Source of the DNA: Lanius collurio
Taxonomy: Eukaryota; Chordata; Aves; Passeriformes; Laniidae
NCBI GenBank assembly: GCA_020086605.1
Contig: JACBWW010000002.1
Span: 26,687,305-26,751,304 of the forward strand
Direction of reading: 5' to 3'
DNA length: 64,000 nt
Shown: in pieces, positions 61,350 to 63,611 of the stretch
Layout of the letters: each line of letters opens with the position of its first letter
Numbering within the stretch: the stretch's first letter is position 1
Made by a program: the position numbers and the translations under genes
The notes under the pieces: model-generated
Database searches by the model: none
Told to the model about the DNA's origin: nothing
The model's input: only the letters and a program-made list of their open reading frames with translations

Positions 61350-61640
61350 TGTGGAGGTGCCTTTTCCTGAACTGCCTGGGGGAGGGACCCTGCAGGGTAG
61401 GGGTCTGCCTTTGTCCCTGCTCCCATGTCACATGTGCCCCATACTTGTTCCAGACGGGTTGGTTTGGGTGTGCCTGGGGCCCAGGGATGAGAGAGGGTCC
61501 CATGACTGGAGTCTGCCTGGGAACTCCAGCCATGTGGCTGGAGGAATAAAAACATCTCTGAACATCTAAAAAAATATCGCTTCATCTTTCCTTCCAGGTT
61601 CATCATTGTCTTATACTTGTAAGGATTCCCCATTACAACA
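61350..61640 (+). repeat. 5' LTR (291 bp)
   Basis: Starts TGTGGAGGTGCC and ends CCCCATTACAACA. It shares its whole length with the 3' LTR, apart from a 6-base insertion near 61398, a 3-base gap near 61620 and scattered substitutions. A polyadenylation signal AATAAA lies at 61545-61550, about 90 bases before the end. No clear TATA box; the AATAAA region is the only AT-rich promoter-like spot. Confidence 0.93.
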
Positions 61641-61642
61641 AA

Positions 61643-61660
61643 TGGTGGAGAAATGATGGC
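61643..61660 (+). other. Putative primer-binding site
   Basis: Two bases after the LTR a TGG-starting 18-mer sits where retroviral primer-binding sites lie (TGG is complementary to the CCA end of tRNA). I cannot match it confidently to a tRNA; a decayed initiator-Met-type site is one weak possibility. Confidence 0.3.
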
Positions 61661-61749
61661 AAACGATCCCTGGAGAAGATAATTCAGTGATTCGTGAGTA
61701 ACTCTCGATATCTCTTCTTGCTTTTGTTTTGCTGTCCCATCTCTGAACG

Positions 61750-62289
61750 ATGGAGGACTCATGGAAGGACTCATGGCTGTCTGAACCACAAAGAGACATT
61801 TACCTTAAACTTAAGAAGGTTCTGGAACAGCAATATGTAGATTTCAGCTTAATTCAAGCTCAGAAAGAGCTAAGACACTTTTTGGCATGGCTGTTTAAAA
61901 ACTTCTTCTATGTTTCTTGGGATTTGATTCTTAGCAAGGACTTTTGGGAGAATGTTTGGACACAGTTAATTTCTGAATTAAAAAACGTGCCAATGCAGGA
62001 CTATTTCCGTGAATATTACCTGATTTCAGAGACTGTTGAGCAATATCGGCTGTGTCCCACTACTGTATCAGCAGCGAACACGTGGTTGAGCAGCGCACGC
62101 GTTGCAGGGGGCTCCTCCGCCATCCCAGAGACCACGCGGCCCCGGACACGGGCGCCCAGTGCATTGCGGGCGGCGGCGAGGGAACTCCCATGTGTGGGAG
62201 AGCCAGTGAGGCCAGGCACGGCGGGAGACGGGGACGTCGGCGAGAGCGGAGGCAGCGGGAGTGGAGCCAGGAGCAGTGCAGCAGCGTGA
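61750..62289 (+). CDS. Gag matrix-like ORF fused to GC-rich extension
   Basis: A 179-codon open frame whose ATG has a good context (A at -3, G at +4). Residues about 12-95 resemble the betaretroviral matrix (MA) domain: a first helix around RDIYLKLKKVLEQQ, a second around ELRHFLAWLFKNFFYVSW in place of the usual 'F..FV..V.PWF', then FWENVWTQLISELKN at the position of the 'W..vg..L' helix. MA normally directs Gag to membranes. No N-terminal Met-Gly myristoylation signal is present (it starts Met-Glu-Asp). From about residue 105 the frame enters GC-rich DNA, giving an Ala/Gly/Arg/Ser-rich tail unlike Gag, and stops at 62287. It lies about 90 bp before the best candidate start of the captured Y-box frame and is in the same frame. 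The MA assignment is by pattern, not by search. Confidence 0.6.
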   Translation: MEDSWKDSWLSEPQRDIYLKLKKVLEQQYVDFSLIQAQKELRHFLAWLFKNFFYVSWDLILSKDFWENVWTQLISELKNVPMQDYFREYYLISETVEQYRLCPTTVSAANTWLSSARVAGGSSAIPETTRPRTRAPSALRAAARELPCVGEPVRPGTAGDGDVGESGGSGSGARSSAAA

Positions 62290-62640
62290 GCCCAGCGGTG
62301 TTAGCCCTGAGACACGCGAGCGGCGCGGCGGCGCCGGTGAGGGGAAGCCGTGTGGGGCTGCTGGGGCAGCCCAGTTAACAGGATGGTGCAGTGCGGGGCT
62401 GCACCGAGCCCAGGCAGCCACGTGGGAGCCCGGCAGAGACAACAGCACACAGGCTGTGGCCAGAGGAGGCCAAGGAGCCAGCAGAGCAAAGCAGCGCGGC
62501 ACGGCCTGGCCCGGCCCACAGAGCCCTGAAGGCAGCCCCAGGAAGCCAGAACCACGCGGTGGGAGCTCTCAGACCCCTACAGTGGCAGCCCCAGCACGAG
62601 AGCGAGCAAAACCAAAAGTGAAAGCAAGAACAAAGTATCT
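62085..62640 (+). other. GC-rich captured segment
   Basis: About 550 bases of strikingly GC- and CpG-rich DNA inside an otherwise AT-rich window and element. It lies immediately upstream of the cold-shock domain. Vertebrate Y-box genes have a CpG-rich first exon encoding an Ala/Pro-rich N-terminal domain, so the simplest reading is that this is the 5' UTR and N-terminal coding part of the captured mRNA. All three frames have long open stretches because of composition, so open frames here are weak evidence of coding. Confidence 0.65.
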
Positions 62641-63158
62641 CGGAAAAATGAAAAGGTTATCGCAGCTAGGGTTTTTAGAACTGTAAAATGGTATAATGTA
62701 AAGAAAAATTATGGTTTCTTATTGAAAAATGATACTGGAGAAAGTATTTTTGTCAATAACTCTGCTATTGTAAAAAATAGCCCCAAAAGTAATGTTCCAA
62801 GCTTAGAAGAAGAGAAAGAGTAGAATTTAAAATTGTGCAAGGAAGGAAGGGCCCACAGGCTGCATGTGTTACAGGCCCTGGGGGTGCTCCTGTGAAAGGC
62901 AGTAGATATGCTGGACAATATCCCCATAATCCCTATCCTTTCCCCTATCCCACCTTCCCCTTTTATCCCATGCCCCTTTATTCCCCATATATGCCCAGCC
63001 CAAATTTCCCTTTCTGGTTCCCCTCACAAAACCAGGCTTTTTCATTTGCCATGAATCCCTTTGCAATGACGATGGGGGGACAAAAAGGAGGGAGGGAAGA
63101 AATTAACTGTCATTTTCTAAGATTCCAACAGGTACAAAAAGGAAAAACCCTCTCCTGA
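62383..63158 (+). pseudogene. Captured Y-box / cold-shock domain protein, degenerate
   Basis: The cold-shock domain spans 62653-62912. It starts with KVIAARVFRTVKWYNVKKNY, contains an RNP1-like NYGFL (62707-62721) and an RNP2-like IFVNN (62746-62760), and after a break continues VEFKIVQGRKG...VTGPGGAPVKGSRYA, the hallmark C-terminal side of vertebrate YBX1/2/3 domains. Y-box proteins bind single-stranded RNA/DNA and package or regulate mRNA. The Trp and both Phe of the binding surface are kept; the RNP2 His of YBX proteins is Asn here. The frame from the ATG at 62383 (A at -3, G at +4) has a TGA at 62527-62529, and a 1-base loss near 62815-62821 shifts the second half of the domain to another frame, so this copy cannot make a full protein. 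The usual basic/acidic C-terminal domain is replaced by a Pro/Phe/Tyr-rich tail ending at 63156-63158. There are no introns, although host Y-box genes split this domain over several exons. Start choice is uncertain; which YBX paralogue was the source cannot be told by eye. Confidence 0.8.
62913..63158 (+). other. Pro/Phe/Tyr-rich tail after the cold-shock domain
   Basis: About 80 codons, in frame with the second half of the domain, start with a run of Pro-aromatic-Pro repeats (PHNPYPFPYPTFPF and further). They are encoded by a strongly pyrimidine-rich plus strand (about 62925-63020). Basic/acidic islands typical of Y-box C-termini are absent. It may be divergent host sequence, element-derived sequence, or a novel extension. 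Confidence 0.6.
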
Positions 63159-63309
63159 CTCAGTCTCCATCTGAAGCATGCTCAAGTCCTGTCTCCCTTC
63201 TGATGCTCCAAAGAAAACCTGTTTGGACATTTGGGGACTCAAGACAGCGGCTTCCTTTCCTTTGAAAATGTTTTGTTGTTTTTCCAACTGTTTCCAATGT
63301 TCTTTATTT

Positions 63310-63321
63310 AAAAAGAAAGGG
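63310..63321 (+). other. Polypurine tract
   Basis: A 12-base purine run (aaaaagaaaggg) ends 5 bases before the 3' LTR, the expected plus-strand primer site. A similar AAAGGG...AAT spacing before TG is seen in betaretroviruses. Confidence 0.75.
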
Positions 63322-63326
63322 TGAAT

Positions 63327-63611
63327 TGTGGAGGTGCCTTCCCCTGAAATCTCAGGGGGAGGGACCCTGCAAGGTCTGCCTTTGTCCCTGCTCCCATGTC
63401 ACCTGTGCCCCATACCTGTTCCTCATTGGTTTGTTTGGGTGTCGGGCCTGGGAAGAGAGACAAGGGTCTCATGACTGGAGTCTGCCTGGGAACTGCAGCC
63501 ATGCGGCTGGAGGAATAAATCATCTCTGAACATCTAAAGAAATATCACTTCATCTTTCCTTCCAAGTTCATCGCTGTCTTATACATGTTGTAAGAATTCC
63601 CCATTACAACA
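63327..63611 (+). repeat. 3' LTR (285 bp)
   Basis: Same TGTGGAGG start and TTACAACA end as the 5' LTR, with AATAAA at 63514-63519. Roughly 30 substitutions separate the two LTRs by eye. Confidence 0.93.

Follow-up and report, generated by a model that had tools for sequence, protein, structure and literature searches.

A 64,000-nucleotide stretch of the Lanius collurio genome (contig JACBWW010000002.1, positions 26,687,305 to 26,751,304, forward strand), hereafter called the window at its full length, contains at positions 61350-63611 an endogenous retrovirus (ERV)-like element of 2.26 kb with long terminal repeats (LTRs), in which a Y-box cold-shock domain (CSD) is the only recognisable gene left. 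Overall, this element is probably best explained as a decayed copy of a large non-autonomous family that uses a captured Y-box CSD to bind its own RNA. Taken jointly, the LTR anatomy and the capture of a host gene are nearly certain. The chances appear evenly balanced that the protein carrying the CSD has an own-RNA-binding function similar to that of Gag or nucleocapsid, an assignment made by analogy. The element is organised as follows (positions in the window).

61344-61349, no strand: left copy of the target site duplication (TSD), AAGTAA, read directly
61350-61640, plus strand: 5' LTR, TG...CA, from sequence comparison
61643-61662, plus strand: primer binding site, decayed in the window copy
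61750-62067, plus strand: head of the fused open reading frame (ORF), at the matrix position, type I, of no known family; open frame 61747-62289
62068-62646, plus strand: linker rich in GC and CpG; stops interrupt it in the window copy, whereas sister copies L096-L099 keep it open and in frame
62647-62912, plus strand: Y-box CSD, intronless, with a frameshift near 62820 in the window copy
62913-63106, plus strand: proline/phenylalanine/tyrosine-rich tail, conserved in the family and unlike the host YBX1 exon (locus L061)
63107-63309, plus strand: 3' stretch common to the copies, no cargo recognised
63310-63321, plus strand: polypurine tract AAAAAGAAAGGG, 5' of the 3' LTR
63327-63611, plus strand: 3' LTR, TG...CA, from sequence comparison
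63612-63617, no strand: right copy of the TSD, AAGTAA, read directly

The paired TG...CA LTRs (about 85% identical to each other), the exact 6-bp duplication on both flanks and the polypurine tract had been described in an earlier inspection of the letters (the sequence-only reading), and all three were found again here. No gag-pro-pol genes were recognised in the window copy by Pfam or in the other copies read by eye, and the element is thus non-autonomous. The same reading had reported a matrix-like ORF as the only retroviral remnant: the lack of recognisable gag-pol held, while "matrix-like" describes position only, since the ORF has no match in Pfam or PDB.

The host genome (1.097 Gb) was searched for further copies; the candidate totals given below are first-look numbers and not confirmed copies. 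A 35-base CSD signature, with up to 3 mismatches, gave 681 matches (352 + 329), and its reversed control gave 0. Some contigs look duplicated (e.g. at loci L044 and L045), and a few of the 681 places may have been counted twice. Searching with a piece of the CSD led to 1041 candidates, 40 of which were scored; all 40 matched and all were fetched. LTR-like sequence was present on both sides of the CSD in 34 of these 40 CSD-chosen copies, five having none upstream and one none downstream within the stretch examined. Both LTRs were near-complete in 28 copies; of these, 18 had an exact 6-bp duplication beside TG...CA and 10 had none, and no such duplication occurred in 542 flank pairs taken from different copies as a chance control.

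Copies were also chosen without reference to the CSD. Type I copies were selected with a DNA query from the 5' region (690 candidates, 40 scored, 20 fetched, including the window's own), and 16/20 had the CSD in place. Of the remaining four (L046, L053, L058 and L059), L046 holds further LTR pieces, and no gag-pol was recognised by eye past the head in any frame of the three others. Type II copies, whose head is 33-37% identical to the type I head, were selected with a head protein query (1168 candidates, of which 150 were scored; the 6 fetched include L025 again), and the CSD was in place in 6/6. L044 and L045 look like one locus on two contigs; both were counted in the 16/20 and in the net nonsynonymous/synonymous ratios given below, and both were dropped as partial from the 0-fold/4-fold variant and codon-position analyses. 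L041 is the same copy as L001 and was dropped from the 0-fold/4-fold variant, head-to-CSD phase and CSD-tree counts.

The proposal of the sequence-only reading that a host gene had been captured and amplified is borne out by these data, as is its expectation of many LTR-flanked copies with the same CSD cargo. The family is larger than first noted and has been amplified to hundreds of copies. A CSD unique to the window locus, with sister copies carrying ordinary gag-pol, had been named as the finding that would overturn the proposal, and it is ruled out by the family-wide matches. Relatives were also sought in IMG/VR, where 75 stretches fitted the pattern and none was confirmed, and in phage records, where there were none. 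LTR pairs of 28 copies diverged by a Kimura two-parameter (K2P) distance of 0.033-0.168 (mean 0.10). This mean exceeds the mean CSD distance of 0.064 among the 40 CSD-chosen copies, an excess that sampling by CSD similarity explains in part only; no age is therefore given for the element.

The cold-shock domain of the window copy is real, intronless and broken. Its first half matched Pfam PF00313 (E = 1.6e-7) and the YBX1 CSD in PDB (about 3e-13), and its second half matched Y-box chains in PDB at 7e-9 to 3e-8 in a different frame; Pfam likewise detected two pieces in two frames. The intronless YBX-type domain of the sequence-only reading thus exists, except that the window copy is dead: owing to the frameshift near 62820 and to an N at the equivalent of YBX1 H87, it encodes no intact CSD. 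In four open copies from elsewhere in the genome, PF00313 was detected with E values of 2.8e-20 to 5.8e-23.

A search with YBX1 recovered, among 150 scored matches, nine lying in open frames of 499-509 amino acids without stops. Four of these nine were read (L096-L099, chosen for their long frames), and each has a single uninterrupted frame of 502-506 amino acids running from head through linker and CSD to tail. In the window copy, the 5' ORF (61747-62289) and the first half of the CSD share one frame. Because of these two observations, the cargo probably does not form a gene of its own and appears to be fused to the 5' ORF. Frame integrity across the family is mixed: alongside the nine long frames, the CSD frame is open in 20/40 copies, and it is shifted in the window copy.

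In five of the six pairs of L096-L099, the ratio of nonsynonymous to synonymous differences (pN/pS) was 0.19-0.32 in the head, 0-0.45 in the CSD and 0-0.57 in the tail. The linker diverges far more than these parts between otherwise close copies (pN/pS 0.60-1.42), which indicates constraint on the ends and hardly any on the linker. The alternating basic/acidic C-terminal domain of Y-box proteins was not found; compared with YBX1 and YBX2, the family retains the CSD with W65, F74, F85 and H87, whereas the C-terminal repeats give way to an aromatic-rich tail (proline, phenylalanine and tyrosine) and a foreign N-terminal head is added. The tail may self-associate, which is a guess. By analogy, the fused protein resembles retroviral nucleocapsid in having the RNA-binding end of a Gag-positioned protein, but neither a zinc knuckle nor a capsid domain was found by Pfam in the family copies scanned.

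The sequence-only reading had called for a test of purifying selection, and such selection was found between CSD lineages. Scanning of 98 loci yielded 69 open CSDs, two of which ran off frame, and a tree of the 67 kept contains four lineages plus L089. W65, F74, F85 and H87, which we take to be RNA-contacting residues, are the majority in all four. The net ratio of nonsynonymous to synonymous divergence (dN/dS) between lineages, computed on open frames only, is 0.11-0.33 over a net dS of 0.5-1.1, and codon resampling, for which subsets of lineages H and K were used, reached 1 in 0/200 replicates for any of the six lineage pairs. Third codon positions also carry 2.5-7.4 times as much net divergence between lineages as second positions, with 38/40 copies of the window's lineage kept in this comparison. 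Purifying selection on the protein between lineages is supported by these sequence comparisons, and net ratios of 0.1-0.3 over such a dS seem too low to come from sampling bias alone.

Within the window's lineage, variants at 0-fold and 4-fold sites were compared in three overlapping sets of 40 (CSD-chosen), 13 (head-chosen) and 53 copies. Variants seen in a single copy gave 0-fold/4-fold ratios of 0.94, 1.05 and 0.99 (1.14, 0.98 and 1.15 with CpG sites excluded), and those common to at least 4 copies gave 0.50, 0.36 and 0.59 (0.55, 0.32 and 0.61 with CpG excluded). Equal single-copy variants together with depleted common ones are as expected if constraint acts between transpositions. The mean pairwise 0-fold/4-fold divergence ratio is 0.63 in the 40 CSD-chosen copies, a biased set.

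Taken together, these data suggest the following mechanism. The ancestor of a non-autonomous ERV-like family captured a spliced Y-box mRNA, and the captured CSD became the RNA-binding end of a fused protein made of a head at the matrix position, a disordered linker, the CSD and an aromatic tail. This protein may bind RNA in the manner of Gag or nucleocapsid and coat the RNA of the element itself, the coating favouring stability, translation or packaging of that RNA into particles, with Gag-Pol supplied in trans by a helper element. Such a role gains support by analogy: when cellular YB-1 is lost, both the production of HIV-1 virions and the early steps of infection are reduced (PMC6040738). 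More tentatively, with chances somewhat below even, the Y-box domain may have replaced the RNA-handling end of Gag, giving an analogue of Gag without a capsid that would mark the element's own RNA and coat it; a pol-less element could in this way outcompete host RNAs for the particles of a helper, and selection would have kept the arrangement through several LTR turnovers.

The Y-box protein might instead act on the host, perturbing germline messenger ribonucleoprotein (mRNP), translation or silencing by small RNAs, with the result that transcripts from the LTR are no longer repressed. YBX proteins belong to mRNPs, and the same dN/dS and pN/pS values and the four retained RNA-contact positions would fit such an action equally. 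We consider it unlikely, though serious: the fusion to a head directly past the leader is Gag-like by position, and the data do not separate action on the host from binding of the element's own RNA.

Several results weigh against the proposed own-RNA binder and the selection on it. The dN/dS values come from open frames and best matches only, which biases dN downwards. In the window's lineage, variants present in 2-3 copies had 0-fold/4-fold ratios of 1.11, 1.87 and 1.38 (1.00, 4.86 and 1.82 with CpG excluded), the class common to at least 4 copies is small (21/301 versus 9/65 in the 40-copy set), and the mean pairwise ratio is 1.03 in the 13 head-chosen copies; the signal of constraint within this lineage is weak. 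The linker, with its pN/pS of 0.60-1.42, is hardly constrained. The phase between head and CSD is kept in 17/40 type I copies, little over one third, the other phases being found in 13 and 10, and most copies have thus lost the ability to encode the fusion. In-frame stops ahead of the CSD are not clearly depleted (44/2750 codons versus 33/2695 and 92/2695), and stop counts around the linker, made in 55 copies before the CSD and in 40 after the head, do not alone show that the linker is coding. We read the phase loss and the stops as decay after insertion. No homology between the head and a matrix protein was recognised, nor did the head match anything in Pfam or PDB as a single sequence or as a profile, and its single-sequence AlphaFold model has a low-confidence predicted local distance difference test (pLDDT) score of 52. 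Finally, no helper with gag-pol turned up, and no search aimed at pol was made.

Part of these observations would suit a functionless captured sequence that hitchhikes on a few master copies: copies decay neutrally once inserted, as the pairwise ratio of 1.03 illustrates, the CSD frame is closed in 20/40 of them, and the phase is lost in the majority. Such a passive cargo is nonetheless improbable, as it accounts neither for net dN/dS of 0.11-0.33 at the net dS observed and the excess of third-position changes, nor for the open frames of 499-509 amino acids in 9/150 scored matches.

The origin of the captured domain was examined through its closest relatives. YBX1 was matched best by an exon of the host's own gene (L061), 92% identical and starting from query residue 69 only; it is the one host YBX1 exon among the matches listed. 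Because the host exon matches from there on, the host CSD is split at residue 69, and the element copies run through this point unbroken. Fourteen further loci (L062-L075) carry CSDs 56-70% identical to YBX1, and 13 of them (all but the short L073) adjoin LTR pieces 66-90% like those of the window, with the same order of parts. TSDs were readable in four of the seven older-lineage loci examined for both LTRs (L066, AGTTAT; L069, GGTCAC; L071, GGAAAA; L074, GCTTCC), and no exact 6-bp duplication was found in L067, L070 and L072. In L063 (G000:C3 near 49924170), the CSD and LTR are of an old lineage (about 73%), but the head piece attached to them is 89% like that of L038, a type II copy belonging to the LTR family of the window; this mosaic suggests recombination between subfamilies.

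When lineage majorities were compared with YBX1 over 89 positions, 44 were as in YBX1 in all four lineages and 19 were changed in all four, ten of the latter to one identical residue. Since the four lineages share these ten changes, a single capture followed by divergence is likely. The captured transcript was most likely a spliced Y-box mRNA, that of YBX1: this paralog is favoured, though not proven, by the motifs VIATK and DRNHxRxYP, with L067 reading DRNHPRQYP past the CSD, near DRNHYRRYP in host YBX1. The GSRYAPN at the CSD end of L075, L089 and others is instead YBX2-like; a YBX2 chain has PVKGSRYA, and we take the PN of GSRYAPN to be YBX2-like. This discordance between YBX2-like and YBX1-like ends would be in keeping with several independent YBX captures, the apparent constraint then being that of the host gene. 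Such a history is quite improbable, given the 19 positions at which all four lineages depart from YBX1 and the order of head, tail and LTRs that the lineages have in common.

The long open frames of some copies could also stem from a gene family that the host has domesticated and in which LTRs persist by chance; this is very improbable in view of the neutral single-copy variants and of the frequent loss of frame in individual copies. Lastly, although the CSD is intronless, a YBX retropseudogene that landed later inside the window element, the other finding named in advance as fatal to capture, is refuted for this copy, as other copies, inserted separately and with different TSDs, have their parts in the same order; no systematic search was made for a poly-A or duplication of its own next to the cargo.

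The family proposed here, a non-autonomous element binding its own RNA through a captured CSD, can be set beside known systems. Acutely transforming retroviruses carry gag-onc fusions, have lost replication genes and need a helper. The likeness lies in the loss of replication genes and in the in-frame fusion of coding sequence from the host downstream of a gag head; here, in contrast, the cargo is no growth gene and the family is a germline one present in several LTR subfamilies. Non-autonomous LTR elements mobilised in trans are short and have LTRs, a primer site and a polypurine tract without pol. All these features apply to the present family, in which no pol was found, but it carries in addition a conserved coding sequence derived from the host. 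In crocodilians, CrocERV29 and CrocERV31 captured the host mRNAs for KIT-ligand and nectin3, the former without loss of ERV domains and the latter at the expense of env (Chong et al., PMC4299795). Both systems have a host mRNA in an ERV lineage and several copies, with purifying selection reported for the KIT-ligand ORFs, whereas our family differs in that no pol or env was seen, in its RNA-binding cargo in frame with the 5' ORF and in its hundreds of copies.

Capture of host genes by retroviruses is thus already known. Among the open-access papers listed in our searches, we found no Y-box, cold-shock or other RNA-binding cargo in a large ERV or LTR family devoid of pol. We know of few host genes captured by ERVs, and most of these have roles in growth or at the cell surface. 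The function captured here would be RNA binding, a step that every retroelement must solve, and the family, with hundreds of copies in four CSD lineages, is large enough for selection to be measured directly. How a non-autonomous element competes for packaging can be put to the test in this family, and gene models that resemble YBX in genomes of this kind may in fact derive from mobile elements.

With respect to ERV class, the family has the marks of an LTR retroelement, namely paired TG...CA LTRs with a TSD, a tRNA primer site and a polypurine tract. The 6-bp duplication (18/28 copies) is a feature that we assume to be of class II/ERVK, although not exclusive to it, and no matrix or Gag domain was recognised by Pfam or PDB with single sequences or profiles. 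The ERVK assignment of the sequence-only reading is putative, as no pol was found in the element for a phylogeny. The primer site TGGTGGAGAATGCGGGCA, present in two of the 29 copies listed (L010 and L030), is over exactly 18 bases complementary to the tRNA-Ala(AGC) 3' end with CCA added; the reading most frequent in type I differs by an additional A and a single change. The tRNA-Ala 3'-end pattern occurs exactly at 6 places in the genome. ARAGORN, run on two fetched places, called a tRNA-Ala with anticodon AGC in L106 and nothing in L107. Five of the exact matches lie within 80 kb (G000:C3:25196440-25275224), one of which was called as tRNA-Ala.

Elsewhere in the window, an ORF at 49659-50189 has no Pfam match and looks by eye like a remnant of a CR1-type long interspersed nuclear element (LINE) reverse transcriptase. 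A tandem repeat of 46 bp in 2.3 copies lies at 47886-47988.

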